From contig JAUNQD010000003.1 of the NCBI GenBank assembly GCA_030536355.1, positions 1 through 64,000 of the forward strand: a stretch of 64,000 bases of DNA. Direction: 5' to 3'. Position 1 is the stretch's first letter, and each line of letters starts with the position of its first letter. The DNA comes from Bacillota bacterium. GTDB taxonomy: Bacteria; Bacillota; Clostridia; Peptostreptococcales; Anaerovoracaceae. Under the pieces are notes generated by a model. That model was not told the DNA's origin. It did no database searches and saw only the letters and a program-made list of their open reading frames with translations. Shown one piece after another: positions 10,113 to 40,940 of this stretch. The translations under genes were made by a program, and so were the position numbers.

Positions 10113-11018
10113 TCAGTAGCAGCATTGATCATTGGAACTGTCATTTCTTTCAGGATACAGACCGGGACAAGTCATTACGCCTGAAATATTTTCCTGCATA
10201 GGTGCATCTGCAAATCCTGTTGATAGAACACAAAGCTGTACAGGTACCGTGATTTTCTTTTCAGCAGCTACACATATAGTTATGATCATGTTGGCTGATA
10301 CATCGCCATTACATCCTATACATAGATCTCGATTTATATTGTTCGTAGCAAGCCTTCCGCTGAATCCCACGTTGGCAAGTTCAGTTAACCTTGGAAGAAA
10401 TGCTGAATTGCTGTTATCCGGCATACATAATTCGAAGAAATTAGTAAGTATAAGAGGGCAATTTTGCTTAGCTACGCTTAATTCAGCACATAAGGTCATA
10501 GTACTTTCTCTACCGCAATTGTCACATACAGCCAGATCGAGGTATATCACTATATTCCCCCATACTTTAGCGTTTTGGGTCCCGAATATAGGTGTTCCGC
10601 AGCCACCTGACTCACATTCACTGTTTTCTGCGAAGAGCAGTTTTTCCGATGGAACACCATCAGGTCCAATAGTTTCCAATGTACCATGACAATCGTTTAC
10701 AAAACATGCACCTGAGATCCCGGTTTCCATTTCCAATGTCAGATTATCACAATCTGAGGCATTGGAAGGATCAAATACTTTTTTGATCCTTATATCAAGG
10801 ACCCTATTTATGGTGCATCCACATGGAAGAGCAGGTGAAAATCTGAGGTTCTGTACTGTCCTCATGCCTTGCATATTGAATCGTACAGCATCATATACGC
10901 TTTGAACATAAATAGGCGTAACTGTAACGTCATCAAGATTACCACTGAAGCTGCACAATTCATTGGCTCTGCAGCAAGTATCATTGCCATTTGTTTGTGA
11001 TGTACAATAACAGTTCAT
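10113..11018 (-). CDS. Cys-rich protein, possible spore-surface component
   Basis: 301 residues, about 24 of them cysteine (8%), starting MNCYCTSQTNG and ending DQCCY. There is no signal peptide, membrane segment or recognised domain. Cysteines come in pairs (CC, CxC, CxxC) between long beta-rich stretches. Two internally similar halves are suspected: IVIYLDLAVCDNCGRESTMTLCAEL and ANMIITICVAAEKKITVPVQLCVL. GGAGGTAACG precedes the ATG. An intracellularly made, disulphide-capable Cys-rich protein beside spo0A suggests a coat or exosporium role, but that is inference. A TGTCGAA sequence sits about 34 bases upstream of the start (11053-11059). Confidence 0.7.
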   Translation of the reverse strand: MNCYCTSQTNGNDTCCRANELCSFSGNLDDVTVTPIYVQSVYDAVRFNMQGMRTVQNLRFSPALPCGCTINRVLDIRIKKVFDPSNASDCDNLTLEMETGISGACFVNDCHGTLETIGPDGVPSEKLLFAENSECESGGCGTPIFGTQNAKVWGNIVIYLDLAVCDNCGRESTMTLCAELSVAKQNCPLILTNFFELCMPDNSNSAFLPRLTELANVGFSGRLATNNINRDLCIGCNGDVSANMIITICVAAEKKITVPVQLCVLSTGFADAPMQENISGVMTCPGLYPERNDSSNDQCCY

Positions 11019-11136: not shown

Positions 11137-12387
11137 ATGGTTAAAACTAAAAAATTAAATTGCGGAACTACCGTGATCATGGAAAAGACAGATTACGTTC
11201 AGTCAGCCGCTTTAGGAATATGGATAAAAGCGGGAGCAGCAGATGAGAATGATGACGTATCAGGCGTTTCCCACTTTATAGAACATATGATGTTTAAAGG
11301 AACTGACAAACGTTCTGCTAAACAGATAGCATCGGATGTAGACAAGATCGGTGGTACATTCAATGCGTTTACAGGCAAAGAAGCAACTTGTTACTACATA
11401 AAAACACTGTCCTCAAATATATATAAAGGTGCAGAAATATTGATCGATATGCTGACAGGCTCCAAGTTCGATCCTGAAGAAATGGACAAGGAGCGACAGG
11501 TAATATTCGAAGAAATAAAAATGGTAAAGGACAGCCCTGATGATGATGTCTACGATACCATCTCTGAACTTGTATCAAGTGGTAATCCGCTTGGAAGAAG
11601 TATTCTCGGAACACAGGAAAGTCTTGCCGGTATAACACGAGAAAAAATGCTCTCTTATCTGAATGATAAATACGCACGCGACAGTATTGTTATAGCGGTG
11701 GCAGGAAATTTTGATGAAGAGAAGATCATGGAGCTTTTTGAAGGCAAGCTTGATAAATTGAAGGCTGAGAAAGTGATCGAGCCATTTGAACTCAAACCTT
11801 ATAAAGCAAGTTATGATGTCAAAGTAAAAGATATTGAGCAGACGCATATATGCCTTGCGGCACCGGGAGTATCTCTAGGTAATGATATGTATTATTCATT
11901 CGTATTAATGAATAGTATCTTTGGAGGAAGCATGAGTTCAAGGCTTTTCCAGAATATCAGAGAAGAAAAGGGCCTCGCTTATTCAGTGTGTTCGATGAAT
12001 GCTTTTTCCAGCTATTGGGGATTCTTCAGCATTTATGCGGGAGTTGCTCATGAAAAGGTCAAAGATACCATCGAAGCAATAAAATATGAACTTGATGCGC
12101 TGAAAAACAAAGGCGTTACATCAGAAGAGTTGATGATGGCAAAGGAACAAGTGAAGAGTTCCTATATTTTCGGATTGGAAAATATAAACAGCAGAATGTT
12201 CTCTATAGGTAAGAATGAACTTCTTCTCGGAAGAGTGTTCAAGCCTGAAGAGGTGCTTGAATCTTTTGATAAAGTAACACTTGAAGACATACTTAAAGCT
12301 GCAGAAATGATCGGAGACCATTCGATTTACTGCGGTGCTTCCGTTACAGGTAAAGACTTTGATTTGGAAGGAATGCTAAAAGGATGA
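11137..12387 (+). CDS. M16 family zinc metallopeptidase (processing-peptidase-like)
   Basis: 416 residues. The inverted zinc motif HxxEH is His46-Phe-Ile-Glu49-His50, with the distal glutamate in VIFEEIKM (about Glu126), so the active site is complete. The inactive-type C-terminal half (SRLFQNIREEKGLAYSV) provides the second M16 domain. It corresponds to the YmxG/MlpA-type peptidases that neighbour dut and pnp in many Firmicutes. AAAGG nine bases upstream supports the ATG at 11137; an upstream in-frame extension to 11086 has no ribosome binding site. It overlaps dut by four bases. Confidence 0.9.
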   Translation: MVKTKKLNCGTTVIMEKTDYVQSAALGIWIKAGAADENDDVSGVSHFIEHMMFKGTDKRSAKQIASDVDKIGGTFNAFTGKEATCYYIKTLSSNIYKGAEILIDMLTGSKFDPEEMDKERQVIFEEIKMVKDSPDDDVYDTISELVSSGNPLGRSILGTQESLAGITREKMLSYLNDKYARDSIVIAVAGNFDEEKIMELFEGKLDKLKAEKVIEPFELKPYKASYDVKVKDIEQTHICLAAPGVSLGNDMYYSFVLMNSIFGGSMSSRLFQNIREEKGLAYSVCSMNAFSSYWGFFSIYAGVAHEKVKDTIEAIKYELDALKNKGVTSEELMMAKEQVKSSYIFGLENINSRMFSIGKNELLLGRVFKPEEVLESFDKVTLEDILKAAEMIGDHSIYCGASVTGKDFDLEGMLKG

Positions 12388-12812
12388 TAATTAAAATCAA
12401 ATCGTTATCAGGGAACATACCACAGTATGAGACAGAAGGTTCTGCCGGTATGGATATAAAAGCATATTTAAAGGAGCCAATTAAAATAGCTCCGGGGAAA
12501 AGAGCCTTGATTCCAACAGGTCTGTTTCTTGAAATACCTACAGGATATGAAGTGCAGATCCGTGCAAGAAGCGGTCTTGCAGTCAAGTATGGTATCGGTT
12601 TAACAAACGGTATCGGAACGATCGATAGTGATTACAGAGGTGAAATCAAAGTTTCTCTCATAAATTGGGGAGAAGAAGAATTCACGGTGAATTGCGGAGA
12701 CAGGATCGCCCAAATGGTGGTTTGTCGCTATGAAAAGGTTGAGTTGGAGCCTGTAAAGGAGCTGAACGAAACGGCAAGAGGAACAGGAGGATTCGGCCAT
12801 ACAGGAATATAA
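12384..12812 (+). CDS. dut: dUTP diphosphatase (dUTPase)
   Basis: Hydrolyses dUTP to dUMP, keeping uracil out of DNA and feeding dTMP synthesis. 142 residues with all five trimeric-dUTPase motifs: GSAGMDI near 19-25, ARSGLA near 61, NGIGTIDSDYRGEI near 74-87, GDRIAQMVV near 104 and RGTGGFGHTG at the C-terminus. Its ATG overlaps the stop of the M16 peptidase gene (ATGA), so the two are translationally coupled. Confidence 0.97.
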   Translation: MIIKIKSLSGNIPQYETEGSAGMDIKAYLKEPIKIAPGKRALIPTGLFLEIPTGYEVQIRARSGLAVKYGIGLTNGIGTIDSDYRGEIKVSLINWGEEEFTVNCGDRIAQMVVCRYEKVELEPVKELNETARGTGGFGHTGI

Positions 12813-12864
12813 ATGATATATCAAAATTAAAGTCTGTCGCATATATTACCTTGAGGTGGTGTAG

Positions 12865-13821
12865 ATGACAGACTTTTTATTACCTGAAAAAATCAACAAC
12901 ATGATAAAAAGCATTCCTAAGCCAAGATTATTTTATAAAAAGGGAATTTATGTAGGAGGATTATTTCGTCCATATATGTCTTTTCAAGAATATACAACAG
13001 CTGCTATGTTTTCAGGAAGTGAAGTCATCACACCTCTTACAATAAGGTTTTCTGCGATGTTGGGAGATGAAAGCACACCGGATACAGTAAGAAACATTAA
13101 AAAAATGGAAGTCCGTTTTTTTACCTTGAAAGGTTGTTATGATATGATATGTCAGAACATACCTGTACAATTCATAAAAGATGAAAAGAAGTCGATAGAG
13201 TTATTTGAGTCATTTAAAAACAAAAGGGCGTTCGATGGCATCAACAAGAAGTCGTTTTGGCAATTCATAGTAAATAATCCGGAATCGATAAATGCAGCGT
13301 TACACTTATATTCAAACGAAGGATTGACAGATAGCTTTATAAATATAAAATGGTATTCGGTAAATTTGATGCATTGGATCAACGAAGCAGGAGAAAAGTA
13401 TTTGATCAGAATAAAGTGGGTACCTATTGTATCCAAACCTTTCGAAAAGGAGTTTCTGACCATCAAATCTGCAGAATTCATTTCAGGATTTGACCCTGAT
13501 ATCGCACATAATGAATTGATCAACAATATAGAAAATGACAGTTTCCCTAAATTGGAGTTGCAAGTTCAGATCATCGACGAAAATAATGCAGCAAATGAAG
13601 AATTATACGATCCTACACTATTGTGGAACGAGAGACAGTTCCCGTTCATACCGGTTGGTGTTTTGATGATCAATAAAATACTATCGGACACAAAGCGTAA
13701 CGAAATTTGTTTTTTAATGACCAATACAATCGAAGGAGTTGAACATTACAGTACGGGTATGAATGATGTATTTGAATTCATATATAAGTTGGAAGCAATG
13801 GAAAGGGGAATATCTTTATAA
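12865..13821 (+). CDS. Catalase-fold protein lacking the catalytic histidine and most of the heme-ligand segment
   Basis: 318 residues that follow the catalase core in order: TPLTIRFSAMLGDESTPDTV (classic xxVRFSTVxGExGSADTVRD), VRFFTLKG, QNIPVQFIKD (NNTPxFFIRD), SFWQFIVNNPESI (DFWxxxPESL), FDPDIAHNELINNI and FPFIPVGVLMINK (YPLIPVGxxxLNRN). The essential heme-side histidine of the VVHAKG motif is a tyrosine here (Tyr24 in RLFYKKG). The RxFxYxDTHRxR proximal-ligand motif is not recognisable; a lone Tyr307 lies near that place. It ends at 318 rather than about 480, and the catalase C-terminal domain is a separate overlapping gene. It is unlikely to be an active catalase. Confidence 0.8.
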   Translation: MTDFLLPEKINNMIKSIPKPRLFYKKGIYVGGLFRPYMSFQEYTTAAMFSGSEVITPLTIRFSAMLGDESTPDTVRNIKKMEVRFFTLKGCYDMICQNIPVQFIKDEKKSIELFESFKNKRAFDGINKKSFWQFIVNNPESINAALHLYSNEGLTDSFINIKWYSVNLMHWINEAGEKYLIRIKWVPIVSKPFEKEFLTIKSAEFISGFDPDIAHNELINNIENDSFPKLELQVQIIDENNAANEELYDPTLLWNERQFPFIPVGVLMINKILSDTKRNEICFLMTNTIEGVEHYSTGMNDVFEFIYKLEAMERGISL

Positions 13822-14015
13822 TGCAAAGGGCACAAGCCAAGGAATTTTATGAGTCTCTTTCCGAAAGAGAAAAAGAGCTGTTGGCGGAATCAATAGCAGA
13901 AGACATTTATTTCGAAGAGAAAGAAGCATGCAAAGAGATACTGTGCATTTTGCATGAAACGAATCGTGAGCTGACAGAACGAATTAAAAGAATTAACGGC
14001 TTTACAAGGCGATAA
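13821..14015 (+). CDS. Stand-alone catalase-related (C-terminal) domain protein
   Basis: 64 residues. The stretch AKEFYESLSEREKELLAESI matches the start of the catalase-related domain that normally closes clade catalases (pattern LYxxMSEEEKxRLIxNIA). The rest is helical and charged. The ATG shares a base with the stop of the catalase-core gene (TAATG), in a different frame, so translation is coupled. The segment that should link the two domains, including the heme-ligand helix and about 100 residues, is missing. A single frameshift therefore does not explain the split. The domain call is by pattern recognition. Confidence 0.7.
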   Translation: MQRAQAKEFYESLSEREKELLAESIAEDIYFEEKEACKEILCILHETNRELTERIKRINGFTRR

Positions 14016-14049: not shown

Positions 14050-15063
14050 ATGAACATCAGAGAAGAAGTAGAAAAAAGAGAATATGAATATCTTTCGCCA
14101 TTTGCGACTAAATCTGCAGAAAGCAAGGGTCGTGCTATGGATGAAGAAAAGTGCAGCATAAGAACTGATTTTCAGAGGGATAGAGATAGGATAGTACATT
14201 CAAAAGCGTTCAGACGTCTTATGCATAAAACGCAAGTATTTCTGGCACCGGAAGGTGATCATTACAGAACAAGACTGACACATACGATAGAGGTCTCTCA
14301 GATAGCTAGGACTATAGCAAGAGGAGCAGGGCTCAATGAAGATCTTGCAGAAGCCATCGCTATGGGTCATGATCTTGGGCATACACCTTTTGGTCATAGT
14401 GGTGAATCTGTGCTGGCTGAAATATATCCTAAGGGTTTCAGACATAATGTTCAGAGTTTACGAGTGGTGGATGTGCTTGAGTCAGGTAGTAAGAGAAGAG
14501 GGATGAATCTGACACAGGAAGTCCGAGATGGTATCTTGAATCATACAGGAAGCACTGTGCCGATGACTCCTGAAGGACAGATCGTTAAAGTAAGCGATAG
14601 AATTGCATACATAAACCACGACATAGATGATGCCATAAGAAGCGGTATAATTACTGTTGGTGATCTCCCAAAGGAAAGTATAGAAATACTGGGCGATACT
14701 CATAAGAAGAGGATAGATACTCTTGTCAGAGATATGATAGAACATTCTTATGGTAAGCCTACAGCACAGTTAAGTGAAGAGAAAATGTCTGCAATGAATG
14801 AGCTCAGAACATTCATGTTCAAAAATGTATACCACAACAGTAATGTCAAAAAAGTAGAGGACATAAATAAAGTTAGAGATATAGTAGAGTCACTTTATAA
14901 TTATTATCTTGAAAATTGGCAGCTGCTTCCTAAGGAACTCCTAGCAATGAAAGATGAATATGATATCGAAGAACTTGTTAAGGATCATGTTGCAGGAATG
15001 ACCGATAGATATGCCATAAATACTTATGAAGAAATAACTAAAAATTATAAAAGATTTTTTTAA
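14050..15063 (+). CDS. dgt: dGTPase-like HD-domain triphosphohydrolase
   Basis: Hydrolyses dNTPs to the nucleoside and triphosphate. 337 residues, the short dgt type. Metal-binding HD residues are seen in LTHTIEVSQIARTIARG near 75-91 and AIAMGHDLGHTPFGHSGE near 105-122. RDRDRIVHSKAFRRLMHKTQ near the N-terminus is the family signature. GGAGGG lies upstream of the ATG. dgt-dnaG-rpoD is a conserved Clostridia order and suggests a replication-linked role. Confidence 0.92.
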   Translation: MNIREEVEKREYEYLSPFATKSAESKGRAMDEEKCSIRTDFQRDRDRIVHSKAFRRLMHKTQVFLAPEGDHYRTRLTHTIEVSQIARTIARGAGLNEDLAEAIAMGHDLGHTPFGHSGESVLAEIYPKGFRHNVQSLRVVDVLESGSKRRGMNLTQEVRDGILNHTGSTVPMTPEGQIVKVSDRIAYINHDIDDAIRSGIITVGDLPKESIEILGDTHKKRIDTLVRDMIEHSYGKPTAQLSEEKMSAMNELRTFMFKNVYHNSNVKKVEDINKVRDIVESLYNYYLENWQLLPKELLAMKDEYDIEELVKDHVAGMTDRYAINTYEEITKNYKRFF

Positions 15064-31616: not shown

Positions 31617-34600
31617 ATGAAGAAACATAAAACGGTAATAAGTATAGTCATGGTTATCATCATGTCTGTAACATTGATCCCACATGGCATATTCGCTTCG
31701 GAAAACAGCAGCATACTTACTAAGCAGGAATTGGCGCAGCAAAAAGCCGAGTTCGAAGAAGATAAGATGGATAAGGCACAGCAGGAGGAACAGCATAACA
31801 ATGCTGCGCAGGGGATCTCCACAAAAGAAAATGCCGATACATCTAATGAAGAGCTGTTGAGAGAGCCCGACCTTGTAGAGGATTATGAGAAAATAGACGG
31901 GCGTATCATAGATTATGATGAAGCTTCGATAACTTATGAAACTGCTGAAAACAGCTATGTAACAAGGATATTCGCAGATCCGATAACATATACAGATAAA
32001 TACGGCAATGAGAAGCTGATAGATAATACCATCAAAGAAAAATTAAGAAAGTATGAGAATACAGAAAACTCATACGATCTTACGCTGCCTAAAAAAGGCG
32101 ATGAGATCACCATAGAAGAAAACGATATCAGCCTTAAAATATCACCAATGTTTGGGACGCTTAGCGACGGTCTGGCAGAAGAGAACGCTGTAAGATATAA
32201 TGATGTGACTCAAGGTATAGACTTGCAGTACACAGCTCTCGGCAGCGCGGTGAAGGAAGACATCATCCTGATGCAGCCTACAGAAATGACTGAGTTCAAA
32301 TACAGTATTGAAGTCAAAGGTAATGAAGACAAGAAGATCACATATAAGCTGGAGAACAATGTCCTCAATGTATATAGGGGACAGAAAGTTATATATACCA
32401 TAAGCGCACCTATGATGGAGGATGCGGACGGAAATGTATCAGATAAGATAACACTAGAGCTTAACGAAGAAAAAGGAAGGACGATCCTTAGCCTGATCCC
32501 CGACAGTATATGGCTGGCAGATCCGCAGAGGGTATATCCTGTGAAGATAGATCCTACCATCGCACTCAATAAATCTAACCTTGAGTGGCATATGGTCGAA
32601 AACGGCAGAAGCGGAGGCAACTACGGGGCGGGTCCTAATGTGGATCATAAGAGAGTGACATATCTTTATGTAGGATTTGAAGACGGCAGCCTGCTGGGTT
32701 CTGCCGCACAGGCTGCAGGCGCATATTATGGGCAGACCAGATCATACCTGAAGCTGAATTATGACTTCGCAGGTAATCTGCCGGATGATGCTATCATAAC
32801 TGCTTACCTAAAAGGATATAAATATGCAGGAAATCCTCCTTCAGGGACTAAAGTATACTGCAAGACGGTAAACAGCGGCTGGAGAGGCAGTTCATATACA
32901 TGGAATACCCAACCAACAAGCCACAGCATAATATCAGATGCGGTAGATGTTTCAAGTAACGGATGGAAGACATGGGATATATCGACCGCAGTAAGAGAGT
33001 GGAAGAACGGTGCGGCCAATCACGGGCTAGTGCTTGCACCTGTAAGTGAATCCCAGAAGGCAGTATGCTTTTCGGGACCGGGCAACTCTACAGGCGGCAG
33101 AGCCATGTACCTTGATATCTACTGGACAGTACCTAATGCAGTAGATGAGAATATGCCGCTTAACGAGCCGGCAGTAAACCTCAGACCATTGACTCTTCAT
33201 GACGACAGTCTGCAGCTTTTCACAGGTCTTATAGCCGATGGGATCGTAAGACCTCAGCTTGATGTGTCATATTCATTAAAAAAGAGCGAAGATGATGAAG
33301 ATATCGCAGAAGGGACATTCAAAAAGGCTTACTGGGGCAGGAAATTCCCGAATACAGAACTGATAAAGGGACAGATACCGTTTACCCTTGGATATACCGG
33401 CCTGTTCGAAAGCAATTGGCAGTCTGCAGGGATACCGGCATCACTAATGGAGGAGGTAACACCTTACTATATATCAGCCATAGCAAGCGGTCAGGCAGGA
33501 ACTACGCCTGAGGGCAGGAGCGATGAGTTCATCATTTATGAATTCACTAAGAAAGACACCTATCCTTATGTAGCGAAATATTACGGCACCACCGTGGAAC
33601 AGATCGTCAAGGATAACAGACCTCACGATTATCTCGGAACTGCCGGAAGCACTATATTCATAAGAAATCCTAAGCAAAACAAGACTACGGAATATACAAG
33701 GGATGCTAAACTCAGCGAAGAACACAGCTGGGAGTTGGTATATGCCAATTTAGGGCGCGGCAGCTGTACTGAATTCGACCTGGAGCCTATCAACACATCG
33801 ACAGGAAACTTCTGGTTTGAATCAGCAGATGCAGAGAACGCTGATTACACCGACAGCTTCACCTTCGCCAGGACATATAACTCTATAGGAGACAAGCAGA
33901 GCGGACTTTTCGGTTACGGATGGAATTTCGAATACGAGCAGAGCATAACGAGAGATGAAAATGGCTATATCTATAACGCAGGAGACGGTGCACGTTTTGT
34001 TTTCGAGAAAGACAGCAATGATAAGTATACATGCGAACATTCTCCATATATGGTTTTAACAACTGATATAGATGAGAAAGCACCTGAAAAAACCACATTC
34101 TCCATAAAAGATACACAGGAGAAACTCGTCTATAAATTCAACTGTTACGGGTTGCTTACCTCTGTGACCGATGAGAAAGGCTTATCTGTAACTATATTAT
34201 ACGACGAAAAACATATGATCAAATCAGTTACTACCAAAAGCGGTAAAGCTTACACCTTCACAGTAAACGATGAAGGTCTGGTAACTGAAGTGACTATGCC
34301 TTCCGGTCATAAGATGTACTACCAATATGAAGACAACTGCCTCACATCTTTTACCAATGCAGACGGCGATAAGCTAACATATGAGTATGACAAGAACCAT
34401 TTTATGATATGGTGGAGCGATGGCAACGGTGTCAAGCAGATAGAAAACACTTATGATGAATATGGAAGAGTAATCAAACAGAAGGATGCGTCGGGAGGAA
34501 CTTCTACACTCACATATAAAAACGGCGAGACAACGATCACTGATGCTGAAGGCAATGTGAGGACATACGAGTATGATGACATGCTCAGAACAGAGAACAT

Positions 34601-37600
34601 GCAGAAGGGATCAGCTTCAGACGACAGACAGTATGACGATGCAGGAAATCTGATAAGCTATACCGATGCAGAAGGAAATCGTACTCAATATACATATGAT
34701 GCAAAGGGCAATCTCACGAAGGAGCAAAGGTCGGGCGGCAGAGTCTGGACCGGTACTTATGATGCATCCGGCAATCTTATAGAGGAAACTGACTTCAACG
34801 GCAATACCACCAAGAGGACATACGATGATAGAGGCAATATGCTCACAGAAACATATGCCGACGGAAGCAGCATATCGTACACCTATGACAGCTTCGGAAG
34901 AAAGACTTCCTTCACCAATGAAGAAGGAACAAAAAAGACCATAACATATGATGGTATTTCATCCATGACAGTAACCGACAGCAGCGGAAGCAGCATCACT
35001 TATTACGATGCCATGGGAAGAGAAATAAATACAGTAGATGAAGAAGGCATAGAACATAAGATCATATACAGCCCTGCCGGAAAGAAAACAGGAACGTGGA
35101 TAACAGGCGGTTTTTCAGAAAGTTATTCATATGATCATGCAGGGAACTGTGTCCGCATAGTCGATGGAACAGGTAATGTCAGCAGTTTTGATTATGACAA
35201 ACAAAACAATATAATCTCCGTAACAGACGGCAACGGAGACACCACAAGATACGGATACGATAAAACAGGAAACAAGATATGGGAAGAAAACCCGGAAGGT
35301 GAGAAGACTTCCTATACTTATGATGCCCGTGGCAATATGATAAGTATGACAGATGGAGAAGGTCATACTACATATAACGAATACGACGGACTTGACAGAC
35401 TCATCAAAACCACCAATCCGGCAGGTGGCATCAGTACATATGATTACTATGAGGATACTGCCAATATAACAGAAGAGAAGGGTGAAAGCGGCACCATATC
35501 ATATACATATGACAAGAACGGTAATCAGATCACTGTCAAGACTCAGTCAGGCGCAGTCACAGAGAGGGTCTTCGATAACAGAGACAGGCTTCTCGGCGTC
35601 ACCTATCCGAGCGGTCTAATGGAAGCTCATAAATACAGCTCGGCAGGAAATCTCACATTAACTAAGGACAGCAACGGAAGAGAATATTCAAATACTTACG
35701 ATGATGAGGGCAATATCCTGACAGAGACAGATGCACATGGAAACATTACATCATATGCGTATGATAAGACAGGAAAGCTTATAAATATGACTGATGCATC
35801 AGGAAATAATTTCTCATATGAGTACGACGGTGCAGGAAATCTCATCAAGACAACAAATCCTGACGGAAGTTTCAGTACATACAAATACGATCAGGCATCA
35901 CGACTTATAGAAACAACAGATGAGAACGGTAATGTGACATCTTATGAATACGATGGTATCGGTCAGCTGATCAAGCAAAAAGATGCCTTAGGCGGCGTAA
36001 CTATCTATACATATGACAATGCCGAAAAACTAATAAAAGTAACCGATACGAGGGGATATACAGAAAGTTACAGCTATGATAAAGCAGGAAATCTAAGAGG
36101 GTATACAGATAAAGAAGGAGCTCATTACGAGACGAAGTCGGATGCCTTTGGCAATCCTCTCAAGGTGACGGCACCGGACGGTGGAGAAATATTAAGCGAA
36201 TATGATGAATACGGCAGAGTTATCGAGGAATCTGATAAAGAAGGCTACGTCAGAGAGTATGAATATGATAAGTCAGGAAGGCTTGTAAAAGAAGTCGATA
36301 ATTCAGGAAGTTCACTAATTTATTCATATGATAAAGAAGGTAAGCTCATAGCTAAGGAAGATGCTATAGGAAGGAAAGCATCATTTGAATACGATATATA
36401 CGGCAACCTGATAAAAGAGATCACCTTCGATAATGATCAGATATCATATGAATACGATAAAGCTGATAACATTGTTAAGATAACAGAAAACGACGGAAGC
36501 ATTACTGAGATGACTTATGATGCCTTAGGAAACATCATAAGTGAGAAATTACCTCTAGAAAGAGAATATTCGTATATTTATGACTATGCAGGAAGATTAT
36601 TACAGGAAACCAACCCTATAGGAGAAAAGACAGCATATTCTTACGATAATGCAGGAAATATCTTAAAGGAAACTTATGCGGACGGCAGCAGCATCTCATA
36701 TACTTATGATGCTTTGAACAGAGTAACATCATATACTGATGCAGAAGGCGGCAGCTCTCTGTACAGTTACGATACCGAAGGGAATCTCACTAAAGAAACA
36801 GATCCTGAAGGAGGCGCGAAAGAATACATATATGACGGCAGAGGCAACCTTCTCAAGGAGATGGACAGGCGTGGTGCAGTCACAGAATATCAATATGATG
36901 TTATCGGCAACCCGTCGAAAACCATTTACCCTAATGGAGGAGAAGAACACTATACATATGACACTAAAGGAAACCTGCTGAGCGAAAAGAACAGATCCGG
37001 CGCAGTCACAACGTATGCATACGAAGCAGACGGTAAACTGCTCCAACAAAAAAATGACAACGGATACACCATATCTTATGCATACGACAAAGCAGGCAGA
37101 GTAACAAAAACAGAGACAAGCGAAGGAGCAGTAAGGTCCTTCACTTATGATGCATGCGGCAATATATCCAAGTTAAAGGAAGAAACAGGCAATATCCTTA
37201 AATACACTTACGATGAAGGACACCGTATCCTATCACAGGAAGACAGCAAGGGCGCTAAACTGAGATATGAATATGATGAGGCAGGCAACAACACCAAGAT
37301 AATATATCCTACAGGCGGCAGTATCACTTATACATACGATAAACTTGACAGAGTAATAAGCGAGAAAGAAAGCTCACTTGCCAAGATAAATTACACATAT
37401 GATGCAGCAGGCAACATCATCGATAAGACACAGAAGGACAAAACCGAGAAATTTACTTATGACAAGACAGGAAACCTCATTACCGAGCTTACTGCTGAAG
37501 GAAGACAAAACTCATATACATATGATAAGCGAGGGCTTGTGACATCCATGACAGATCCTCTAGGCAGGAAAACATCTTATGAATATGATAAGAACGGCAA

Positions 37601-40600
37601 CCTCACATCATATACAGATGCAGCAGGCGGTAAAGTAAACTACGCATACGACGAAGAAAACAATATTCTCGGCGAAGAAAACCAGATGGGCGAAACCTTT
37701 ACCTATGTTTATGACAAAGCAGGAAGGCTCACAGAGGCAACAGACGCCATAGGAAGGACAGTTAAATATCAATACGATAAGATGGACAACCTGACAGCCA
37801 GGATCGAAGGAGACGGAAGTCAGACAAATTATTCTTATGACAAGATGGGTAACCTTATCAAAGAAGAAACACCATCCGGCAAAATAACCAAATACACCTA
37901 CGATGCAGCAGGCAGGATGACAGCCAAGATAAACCCGGACGGCAGCAGGATAAAATACGATTATGATGTCTTGAGCAACCTCGTAAGCAAGCAATACTCA
38001 GACGGAACAAAATCAACGATATACGGATATGATGCCGCAGGGAATCTGATAACTATGGATGATGAATCAGGTAAGAGCCGTACCGCTTACGACGAATTGG
38101 GACGTGTCAGCACCATAACAGATGCCAACGGACAAAAATTGAAGTATACATATGACGAATATGACCGCATAAGCAAGATCACATATCCAAAAGGCAGAGA
38201 AGTAGTATATACTTATGATAGAGATGATAACATCACAAAAGTATCAGATAATAAAGGCATAACAGCAGCTTATACCTATGATGCTGCAGGAAACATCATC
38301 ACCTGCAGCAGAAGCGACGGAACAACCACAAGCTACAGTTATGATGCCAAAAACAACCTGACAAACCTCGTTAACACAAGAGGCAACCACATCATCTCAA
38401 GTTACACCTACGAATACGATAAAGCCGACAGGATAATCAAGGAGACAGAACGAAAAGACAGCATAGTCATAACAACAAGTTTCACCTACGACAAAGCAGG
38501 GCAGCTGACAGGATATATCGAAAACGAAGACGGCAAGCTGAGGAGCACAACGTATACGTACAACGCAGCAGGTAATCGTGTCTCTGTAACTAAAGGAGGT
38601 AATGAAGGCACTATCACTGTCACATATAACAGTGACGATCAGGTGGTGAGCGAAACCAATAGCAAAACTAAAGATAAGATCAAGTATATCTATGATGATA
38701 ACGGTAATCTGGTCAAGAAGAAGTCAAAGGGCAAGAGCATAGTTTATGAATATGACATAGAAAACAGACTACGCTCAGTATCACAGGGCGGACAGCTTCT
38801 TATGGCTGCTACTTATGACGGTATGGATAATAAGGTCTTCCAGATGAGCCGTAAGCTCATAGAAAGAGATGTACCTAAAGAAGATGATGATGGAGAGGAT
38901 GATGAAGACTCAGAGATAGGAGGCACCTTCTTCGACCCTGACATGTTCATGTACGGCTTCATGCAGGGCGGTATGAAGATGGGAGCATCCACATCACCTA
39001 CCCTTGTGGCAGGAATAGGAGATAAGCTTTGCGATATCTGGGACGGCATCAGGACATACTTCACAGGCAAGATCGAGTATGTAGATCCTGAAGAGCTTGC
39101 AGACATAGTAGTTCCGGGAACAGAACGAGGCATATTCATAACATACGACATCACCAACTATCTCAACGACACAGTATTCAATGAATACACACAGGTGATG
39201 TATCAGTATGATGAAAACAAAAGAGAGAAAGCAAGCTACATCTACGGACCTTCAGACGAACGACTCTCTGCAGACAAAACAAGAAGAGCCGTAAACTATG
39301 TCGCAGACAAACCGGGAAGCTATACATACATGTACGACGGACATGGAAGCGTGACCCAGGAGCTCAGAAGCGGTAAGGAAGTAAACAGCTACTACTACGA
39401 CCCATACGGAGCAGTAGAACGTGGAACAGAAGAAAACGACATCATCTTCGGCTACAACGGTGAGGAATATACAGAAGCGACACAGCTTCAGTACCTGAGA
39501 CAAAGACACTACGCACCGGAAATCGGTTCATTCCTTACACAGGACATGTATCGAGGCGATCTGTACGAACCAAACAGCCAGAACAGATACACCTATGCAG
39601 GAAACGACCCAGTAAACTATAACGATCCGGGAGGAGATAAACGAAGGAGCGTAGCAGATAAGACAAGTTATGGAGGAAGCAACAGGCGAGGCGCCAACAA
39701 AGCAGAGACAATAGCAGCAGCAAATGCCAACCTTAATAAAGCTTTGAGCACAGTATCAGGAGCAGCTAAAAACCTGTATAACACACTGACCTCAAGCGCA
39801 ACCACATCTGCTCATAACTCAGCAAGAAACACATCTAACGGCAAGAAGACATCTGTCACCACATATACAAGACAGCAGATGGCAAAGCAAGCTGTAGAAA
39901 GCTTCAAGACCAGCAACAACCTGTTCAGTATGGCAGAATACCTGCAGCAAGGCTTCGCATGTGACGGAGACAAGGGCGGGACCCCTAATATAGCGGATCA
40001 CAAGAGGAAGCTGACAGAAGAAGCCAAACTGCAGCAGCTCAAGGAAGTAGCATCAAACGGCCTTCCTAAGTTCATGTACAACATGTCCGAAGCCTTCGTA
40101 GGGACCCTCACCTTCGGCCAGTCATACAAGGGAGAAGACACGACCACTCCATACTATGATGATATACACAGCGGAGCAGCAGCAACCATAGGAAGCTTCG
40201 CAGGCTCAGGCCTAGGCTATGCAGCATACTACACCATAGGCGGCCCGATATTCAGCGGCATATCAAAAGCAGCAGGAGGAGGCATCAAGGGAGCACTAGT
40301 AAGCAGTGCGACAGGAGACCTTACTATAGGGCTGGGACAGTCCATAGGCATGGCAAGCGTGCAAGGACTTGAAGGAGAAGAAGCTGCTAAATATGTAGCT
40401 GCTAACCTAGCTATTGATCTATTCCTCAGTGGTGGAATAGAAGCACTTAACGGCTCACTAAAAGGAAGTGGCGATGAAGTTCGGCAGCTGTTTGAGAAGC
40501 TGTTTAGGAAGAATGGTAGTGAGGGTGGTTTAAAGTCAAAAACAGTAATTGATTATTCCAAACGTTTTGAGGATAGTTTAGAGAATGATTTCAATTTTGG

Positions 40601-40940
40601 TACAGAAGTAAGATCTATTGTACAAGAGGATATGATTATAGTTCAATTCAGTTCTACTGCTCCAAATGCATCATTAAGGTATTGGACTACCATTGATGAA
40701 GCAAATAAAATTTCAACAATTGATGAATATATGAATAAGATGGCATTGTCAACTGAGTGGGGAGATAGAAATGTAGTAAAAGTAGCTAGGGTTCCAAAAG
40801 GCACAAAGGTAAAACATGCAATTGGAACGGCAAAAGCTCAAATGAAAATCATTGACCCAAGACCTGGAAATGGCAAACAGATATTATTTAACCAATTTGA
40901 TAAAGATTGGATTACCGAAGTAAGAAATATTACGGAATAG
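31617..40940 (+). CDS. Secreted giant RHS/YD-repeat polymorphic toxin (WapA-like)
   Basis: 3107 residues. Signal peptide 1-27 (basic start, hydrophobic core, cleavage near FAS-EN). About 330-510 resembles a DNRLRE carbohydrate-binding-type module; 648-688 resembles LysM (YPYVAKYYGTTVEQIV). 718-782 is the RHS entry domain (STGNFWFESAD, GYGWNFEY). About 830-2400 is a long array of YD repeats (GNL-x-YxYDxxGNL). The RHS core signature lies near 2590-2675 (YYYDPYGAVERG, YLRQRHYAPEIGSFLTQD, YTYAGNDPVNYNDPGG). After a Gly/Ala-rich hydrophobic stretch (about 2855-2918) comes a variable tip, 2932-3107, whose fold I do not recognise. The layout is that of a contact-dependent toxin with its immunity gene directly after. 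Confidence 0.93.
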   Translation: MKKHKTVISIVMVIIMSVTLIPHGIFASENSSILTKQELAQQKAEFEEDKMDKAQQEEQHNNAAQGISTKENADTSNEELLREPDLVEDYEKIDGRIIDYDEASITYETAENSYVTRIFADPITYTDKYGNEKLIDNTIKEKLRKYENTENSYDLTLPKKGDEITIEENDISLKISPMFGTLSDGLAEENAVRYNDVTQGIDLQYTALGSAVKEDIILMQPTEMTEFKYSIEVKGNEDKKITYKLENNVLNVYRGQKVIYTISAPMMEDADGNVSDKITLELNEEKGRTILSLIPDSIWLADPQRVYPVKIDPTIALNKSNLEWHMVENGRSGGNYGAGPNVDHKRVTYLYVGFEDGSLLGSAAQAAGAYYGQTRSYLKLNYDFAGNLPDDAIITAYLKGYKYAGNPPSGTKVYCKTVNSGWRGSSYTWNTQPTSHSIISDAVDVSSNGWKTWDISTAVREWKNGAANHGLVLAPVSESQKAVCFSGPGNSTGGRAMYLDIYWTVPNAVDENMPLNEPAVNLRPLTLHDDSLQLFTGLIADGIVRPQLDVSYSLKKSEDDEDIAEGTFKKAYWGRKFPNTELIKGQIPFTLGYTGLFESNWQSAGIPASLMEEVTPYYISAIASGQAGTTPEGRSDEFIIYEFTKKDTYPYVAKYYGTTVEQIVKDNRPHDYLGTAGSTIFIRNPKQNKTTEYTRDAKLSEEHSWELVYANLGRGSCTEFDLEPINTSTGNFWFESADAENADYTDSFTFARTYNSIGDKQSGLFGYGWNFEYEQSITRDENGYIYNAGDGARFVFEKDSNDKYTCEHSPYMVLTTDIDEKAPEKTTFSIKDTQEKLVYKFNCYGLLTSVTDEKGLSVTILYDEKHMIKSVTTKSGKAYTFTVNDEGLVTEVTMPSGHKMYYQYEDNCLTSFTNADGDKLTYEYDKNHFMIWWSDGNGVKQIENTYDEYGRVIKQKDASGGTSTLTYKNGETTITDAEGNVRTYEYDDMLRTENMQKGSASDDRQYDDAGNLISYTDAEGNRTQYTYDAKGNLTKEQRSGGRVWTGTYDASGNLIEETDFNGNTTKRTYDDRGNMLTETYADGSSISYTYDSFGRKTSFTNEEGTKKTITYDGISSMTVTDSSGSSITYYDAMGREINTVDEEGIEHKIIYSPAGKKTGTWITGGFSESYSYDHAGNCVRIVDGTGNVSSFDYDKQNNIISVTDGNGDTTRYGYDKTGNKIWEENPEGEKTSYTYDARGNMISMTDGEGHTTYNEYDGLDRLIKTTNPAGGISTYDYYEDTANITEEKGESGTISYTYDKNGNQITVKTQSGAVTERVFDNRDRLLGVTYPSGLMEAHKYSSAGNLTLTKDSNGREYSNTYDDEGNILTETDAHGNITSYAYDKTGKLINMTDASGNNFSYEYDGAGNLIKTTNPDGSFSTYKYDQASRLIETTDENGNVTSYEYDGIGQLIKQKDALGGVTIYTYDNAEKLIKVTDTRGYTESYSYDKAGNLRGYTDKEGAHYETKSDAFGNPLKVTAPDGGEILSEYDEYGRVIEESDKEGYVREYEYDKSGRLVKEVDNSGSSLIYSYDKEGKLIAKEDAIGRKASFEYDIYGNLIKEITFDNDQISYEYDKADNIVKITENDGSITEMTYDALGNIISEKLPLEREYSYIYDYAGRLLQETNPIGEKTAYSYDNAGNILKETYADGSSISYTYDALNRVTSYTDAEGGSSLYSYDTEGNLTKETDPEGGAKEYIYDGRGNLLKEMDRRGAVTEYQYDVIGNPSKTIYPNGGEEHYTYDTKGNLLSEKNRSGAVTTYAYEADGKLLQQKNDNGYTISYAYDKAGRVTKTETSEGAVRSFTYDACGNISKLKEETGNILKYTYDEGHRILSQEDSKGAKLRYEYDEAGNNTKIIYPTGGSITYTYDKLDRVISEKESSLAKINYTYDAAGNIIDKTQKDKTEKFTYDKTGNLITELTAEGRQNSYTYDKRGLVTSMTDPLGRKTSYEYDKNGNLTSYTDAAGGKVNYAYDEENNILGEENQMGETFTYVYDKAGRLTEATDAIGRTVKYQYDKMDNLTARIEGDGSQTNYSYDKMGNLIKEETPSGKITKYTYDAAGRMTAKINPDGSRIKYDYDVLSNLVSKQYSDGTKSTIYGYDAAGNLITMDDESGKSRTAYDELGRVSTITDANGQKLKYTYDEYDRISKITYPKGREVVYTYDRDDNITKVSDNKGITAAYTYDAAGNIITCSRSDGTTTSYSYDAKNNLTNLVNTRGNHIISSYTYEYDKADRIIKETERKDSIVITTSFTYDKAGQLTGYIENEDGKLRSTTYTYNAAGNRVSVTKGGNEGTITVTYNSDDQVVSETNSKTKDKIKYIYDDNGNLVKKKSKGKSIVYEYDIENRLRSVSQGGQLLMAATYDGMDNKVFQMSRKLIERDVPKEDDDGEDDEDSEIGGTFFDPDMFMYGFMQGGMKMGASTSPTLVAGIGDKLCDIWDGIRTYFTGKIEYVDPEELADIVVPGTERGIFITYDITNYLNDTVFNEYTQVMYQYDENKREKASYIYGPSDERLSADKTRRAVNYVADKPGSYTYMYDGHGSVTQELRSGKEVNSYYYDPYGAVERGTEENDIIFGYNGEEYTEATQLQYLRQRHYAPEIGSFLTQDMYRGDLYEPNSQNRYTYAGNDPVNYNDPGGDKRRSVADKTSYGGSNRRGANKAETIAAANANLNKALSTVSGAAKNLYNTLTSSATTSAHNSARNTSNGKKTSVTTYTRQQMAKQAVESFKTSNNLFSMAEYLQQGFACDGDKGGTPNIADHKRKLTEEAKLQQLKEVASNGLPKFMYNMSEAFVGTLTFGQSYKGEDTTTPYYDDIHSGAAATIGSFAGSGLGYAAYYTIGGPIFSGISKAAGGGIKGALVSSATGDLTIGLGQSIGMASVQGLEGEEAAKYVAANLAIDLFLSGGIEALNGSLKGSGDEVRQLFEKLFRKNGSEGGLKSKTVIDYSKRFEDSLENDFNFGTEVRSIVQEDMIIVQFSSTAPNASLRYWTTIDEANKISTIDEYMNKMALSTEWGDRNVVKVARVPKGTKVKHAIGTAKAQMKIIDPRPGNGKQILFNQFDKDWITEVRNITE
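39324..40408 (+). repeat. RHS end repeat, copy 1 (within the full-length toxin gene)
   Basis: 1085 bases matching 41639-42723 at a constant offset of 2315 with no indels. By eye I count about 15 mismatches, one in the first 860 bases and the rest in the last 230. Confidence 0.95.

Follow-up and report, generated by a model that had tools for sequence, protein, structure and literature searches.

A gene pair in an Anaerovoracaceae genome reads as a catalase cut in two, and raises the question of whether such a pair still encodes a catalase, is the residue of one, or makes a different protein on a catalase scaffold. The pair lies in the 64,000-nucleotide stretch of DNA analysed here (hereafter, the window), which belongs to a host genome of 1.83 Mb that is 97.8% complete. 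It has constant neighbours on the same, forward strand, namely a dut-like gene upstream (dUTPase, positions 12384-12812) and a dgt-like gene downstream (dGTPase, 14050-15063), both of which we take to be such from their sequences and from known family motifs rather than from a library match.

A catalase fold divided between two overlapping genes

The first gene of the pair, ORF1 (12865-13821, forward strand), encodes 318 residues that comprise the catalase beta-barrel domain and a stub of helix 9, with the catalytic and heme-ligand residues lost. The original prediction had described it as a catalase core, and its residues 1-294 indeed match the Pfam Catalase family (PF00199) with an E-value of 2.8e-54 and a score of 185 bits against a cut-off of 25. 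A weak structure model (pLDDT 61) adopts the catalase fold, its top Foldseek matches in the PDB being catalases (E 1.5e-20). The second gene, ORF2 (13821-14015, forward strand), encodes the C-terminal helical domain of catalases (Catalase-rel, PF06628) as a 64-residue protein of its own. Taken alone, the window copy is under the Pfam cut-off (4.8e-5); the family is matched by 20 of the 21 ORF2 orthologues, the best at 8.1e-16, and ORF2 is thus the lone Catalase-rel domain that it had been thought to be. The two genes are in different frames and have one base in common, within the stop/start overlap TAATG (13819-13823, forward strand; TAA at 13819-13821, ATG at 13821-13823).

Each gene is preceded by a likely ribosome-binding site, GAGGTGG for ORF1 (12853-12859) and AAAGGGG for ORF2 (13802-13808), both on the forward strand. 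The latter, which has a similar G-rich counterpart 5' of ORF2 in relatives, lies over the codons for Arg314, an invariant residue, and for Gly315, so that this stretch is simultaneously under protein and translation constraint. In catalases, the wrapping domain that leads from helix 9 to the helical domain measures 104-126 residues (PMC9687031). Here, ORF1 stops just past the Arg of helix 9, the helical domain opens ORF2, and the wrapping domain is mostly missing, in agreement with the estimate of about 100 absent linking residues. The C-terminal helix of ORF1, approximately residues 298-317, is the surviving helix-9 segment.

Distribution, descent and selection

An alignment search located the ORF1/ORF2 pair in 8 of 49 genomes of the window's genus, succeeding on contigs in which a single-sequence scan had given no matches. 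Four of these relatives, at 43-47% identity, have the same two genes, and the arrangement is therefore not due to chance. ORF2 stands directly 3' of ORF1 in every split relative examined, the junction being a 4-base ATGA-type overlap or the 1-base TAATG overlap; three g90 genomes have 4 bases between the genes instead. Both the split and the overlap are thus common to relatives, and a frameshift or sequencing error as their origin, already doubted from the sequence of the window, is ruled out, since independent genomes show the same split and have kept the coupling. In genomes where ORF1 and ORF2 are both absent, dut and dgt adjoin each other; in the closest of these, dgt is 87% identical to that of the window, indicating that the two genes were gained or lost as a unit.

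A wider family search returned homologues of three sizes: split proteins of about 296-327 residues, fused proteins of 366-454 residues and canonical catalases of about 490-545 residues. The 38 split or fused orthologues that we studied come from across the Anaerovoracaceae, Anaerovorax odorimutans SL.3.17, which is placed in this family, being among the named related loci, and they sit between dut and dgt. Wherever split or fused loci have enough flank, the gene order is M16 peptidase, dut, pseudo-catalase, dgt, dnaG and rpoD, with the exception of locus L070, where dut and the peptidase gene are on the opposite strand. Canonical catalases are found elsewhere in the genomes. In several genera, a gene for a PhoU-like (DUF47) protein and one for a phosphate transporter (PHO4) lie between the pseudo-catalase and dgt (L017, 7225-8833; L086; L087; L064; L065), and in g54 (L069, L091) the DUF47 gene alone was seen there. 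Outside the Anaerovoracaceae, 297 genomes of the order and 391 of the class were sampled and yielded no orthologue; full-length matches in these genomes were ordinary catalases, accompanied by a few short fragments and weak matches of 338-349 residues. The latter (G414, G430 and G436; f4, g135) are frames that resemble the second half of the barrel, with E-values of 8e-6 to 3e-4.

In maximum-likelihood trees that included human catalase and E. coli HPII, all 38 split and fused proteins form a single clade (support 100/99), within which the 21 split proteins form one clade (100/99) nested in a grade of fused ones. On this topology, the gene was split once, after heme ligation had been lost. The window genus is on long branches, consistent with faster evolution.

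Most pairs of closely related ORF1 or fused genes have a dN/dS of 0.05-0.10, with about 0.2 for one ORF1 pair of the fast-evolving window genus; ORF2 gives 0.05-0.16 where dS is measurable, and the canonical catalase pair that could be measured gives 0.055. Many more distant pairs were saturated. Frames are open in all relatives examined, and the window copy was judged by its own intact frames and by these relatives. Both genes are thus under purifying selection, as expected of a working protein and not of a dead gene, and the low ratios exclude a decaying pseudogene for the clade as a whole. Neither of the observations that would have spoken for recent decay was made: dN/dS is far from 1, and at this locus the closest full-length relatives, instead of being catalases with the histidine in place, already lack the heme ligand.

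The heme pocket and the supply of heme

With HPII and human catalase (whose sequence is identical to that of PDB 1f4j) as rulers, two residues of the iron side are lost in all 38 proteins, namely the proximal Arg354, by which the ligand Tyr is activated, and the catalytic Asn (N148/N201), replaced by Gln97 in the window. The ligand Tyr358 is lost in 35 and present in three, the window copy and two relatives. The distal His75 is lost in 22 and kept in 16; the window has Tyr24 (codon 12934-12936, forward strand) at this position, which corresponds to H75 of the human enzyme and H128 of HPII, and the replacement initially read from the sequence is thereby confirmed. The further proposal that the heme-ligand segment had gone holds for the residues, given the losses of Arg and Tyr, and not for the segment itself, which persists as the C-terminal helix of ORF1 and carries Tyr307 (codon 13783-13785, forward strand), aligned with the proximal ligand Tyr (human Y358, HPII Y415). 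Relatives vary here: the position is S, L, I or F in 19 of the 38 proteins, H, Y or C in 14 of the 21 split copies, and L, H, C or F in the close relatives of the window; among the nine split copies with a distal His, seven also have His at this place.

The other side of the pocket has fared differently. Arg112, Arg365 and Ser114 are kept in all 38 proteins and Arg72 in 33, the window counterparts of the three Arg being R21, R61 and R314. In catalases, three conserved Arg form salt bridges with the heme propionates and the ligand Tyr is on helix 9 (PMC9687031); the Arg listed for coral allene oxide synthase, R64, R102 and R360 (PMC5617202), match R72, R112 and R365. The iron side has therefore decayed and the carboxylate side has not. 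Of 91 columns invariant in canonical catalases, 24 are retained, and retention of all three Arg has a probability of about 0.017 by counting, a figure which, these residues having been chosen post hoc, is only mildly unusual. Where the gene is split, the Arg314-Gly codons double as the ribosome-binding site of ORF2; unsplit proteins keep this Arg too. Positions conserved specifically in the pseudo-catalases (Y37-M38, P187 and E204-F205) are candidates for residues of a new site. An NADPH site as the retained function is ruled out, since the positions that decide binding in clade 3 catalases, Arg203 and His/Gln305 (PMC9687031), are not kept, being E152 and E256 in the window.

On the tree, no fewer than five changes are needed to explain the losses of the distal His. 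The pattern across these sequences indicates that the His was lost after Asn and Arg, and repeatedly, the window copy included; His loss as a first, recent step is ruled out by the 16 proteins that retain it and the absence of Asn and Arg from all. Among the remaining catalases that we examined in the order and class, all keep His, Arg and Tyr, and three of those listed are without Asn. These three (L149, L163 and L167, about 690-734 residues, from other families of the order or class) have Leu for the catalytic Asn.

Ferrochelatase was found in none of 31 carrier genomes, with 8 of 14 control genomes positive. HemB is absent from the window genome and from 7 of the 8 carriers in its genus, and family-wide 10 of the 24 carriers tested have it; in the window genome, a siroheme-dependent route to heme would thus miss a required enzyme. 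Judged by gene content, the carriers belong to a family of gut bacteria that appears unable to make heme, the step catalysed by ferrochelatase being absent. Four genomes additionally have a canonical catalase, so the pseudo-catalase is not simply their catalase, and scavenged heme may be available to such carriers.

A catalase scaffold probably without iron ligation

Taken together, these data suggest that ORF1 and ORF2 probably each encode half of a single protein derived from catalase, one that is independent of heme and is not a catalase, possibly with another anionic or tetrapyrrole ligand. Its ancestry places it in the catalase superfamily; by its residues, it would not be a catalase. The proposal of a two-subunit, non-catalase protein, made at the outset, gains support from the shared split and overlap, the lost ligand residues and the low dN/dS, the assembly of the two products being presumed. 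The sequences show that, in an ancestral Anaerovoracaceae gene fixed between dut and dgt, the proximal Arg, the catalytic Asn and the ligand Tyr disappeared and the wrapping domain was then shortened; in one branch, a single split placed the barrel and the helical domain on separate genes with overlapping stop and start. Both polypeptides would be co-produced through translational coupling and would dock as barrel and helical domain do in catalases. Such a unit would neither ligate heme iron nor dismutate hydrogen peroxide, in hosts without ferrochelatase. The propionate-binding Arg at the old pocket would most likely hold some other anionic ligand, perhaps a scavenged porphyrin or heme bound through its carboxylates, and the product would then be a binding, carrier or sensing protein; this is the weakest step of the scheme.

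An alternative reading is that of a re-purposed heme enzyme, in which heme would still be held axially by a His, Cys or Tyr in the old Tyr place and would serve a different reaction, as in allene oxide synthase. The retained propionate-binding Arg suit it, and so do the 14 split copies with H, Y or C, residues that can all bind iron, among them the Tyr307 of the window, and the seven in which His stands on both sides; the 14 copies and Tyr307 also count against our explanation. Nevertheless, the axial residue is not conserved, half of the proteins having S, L, I or F, the universal loss of proximal Arg and distal Asn is without parallel in allene oxide synthase, which keeps all these residues, and ferrochelatase is missing from the carriers, so that we regard such an enzyme as unlikely. 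A working two-piece catalase that uses Tyr307, aligned with the ligand Tyr and accompanied by all the propionate Arg, is very improbable given that the distal His, Asn and proximal Arg are all missing, that the Tyr is replaced by L, H, C or F in close relatives, and that neither ferrochelatase in the carriers nor HemB in the window genome was found.

The neighbours dut and dgt, and the PhoU-like and phosphate transporter genes, are hints of nucleotide or phosphate metabolism, and the protein could be a partner or regulator of dUTPase, dGTPase or phosphate transport, its fold serving as a scaffold with no small ligand. Orthologues with enough flank retain the dut-dgt locus (L070 being rearranged), and several genomes add a PhoU-like gene, usually with the transporter, before dgt. 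However, most genomes of the genus have dut and dgt together without the gene, so its position may just be inherited, and neither domain nor any motif indicates nucleotides; we consider this role slightly more doubtful than that of a heme enzyme. The notion of a decaying catalase pseudogene could appeal to the vanished catalytic residues and to the long branches and one higher dN/dS of the window genus, but is refuted by the low ratios, the open frames and the conserved split, coupling and ribosome-binding sites of an old clade, and we give it hardly any credence.

Compared with monofunctional heme catalases (PF00199 plus PF06628, on the clade 1/2 side, e.g., E. coli HPII), the pair shares the barrel, the helix-9 stub, the helical domain, the propionate-binding Arg and Ser114, and residue 217 is bulky in the family as in clade 1 and 2 enzymes; it differs in the absent Asn, proximal Arg and distal His, the unconserved ligand Tyr, the curtailed wrapping domain and the helical domain encoded as a gene apart. 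Minimal catalases and catalase-related peroxidases, of about 300 residues, have a short catalase core like that of ORF1 and keep distal His and proximal Tyr, whereas in the window family neither residue is essential and the helical domain persists on a gene of its own. Coral allene oxide synthase and hydroperoxide lyase likewise employ the catalase scaffold for a non-catalase job, yet they retain heme, H67, N137, Y353 and the three Arg (PMC5617202), and the window pair does not present the equivalents of H67, N137 and Y353 with heme. The analogy with allene oxide synthase, drawn in the original prediction, is therefore apt for the reuse of the scaffold and weaker for the chemistry, as the Anaerovoracaceae family lacks the iron-side residues.

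A literature search limited to open-licence papers found no description of such a family. A 2021 catalase survey set a minimum length for typical catalases, 450 residues in clades 1 and 3 and 600 in clade 2, and dropped shorter ones (PMC8017148), a filter that may explain why the family is undescribed; annotation pipelines would label its genes catalase, and surveys would miss them. Catalase is a textbook heme enzyme and its known re-uses keep heme; here, the scaffold outlives iron ligation, the losses follow an order whose stages (canonical, fused and split) all survive today, and it becomes testable what the catalase barrel can do without heme. More tentatively, and with considerable doubt, this might be the first branch of the catalase fold to be independent of heme, its propionate pocket kept for a non-heme ligand, obligately two-subunit since the single split, and with a role tied to the nucleotide-pool locus of dut and dgt.

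Two other features of the window deserve mention. On the reverse strand, opposite to its neighbours, a gene at 10113-11018 encodes a Cys-rich protein of 301 residues with no Pfam match, perhaps a spore-coat protein; it adjoins spo0A-like and spoIVB-like genes and occurs in the same place in most relatives with enough flank. On the forward strand, 31617-40940 encodes a protein of 3107 residues in which 32 RHS-repeat stretches are accompanied by a DUF6531 domain and by a partial match to the teneurin YD-shell; this giant RHS/YD protein is possibly a polymorphic toxin or an adhesin.
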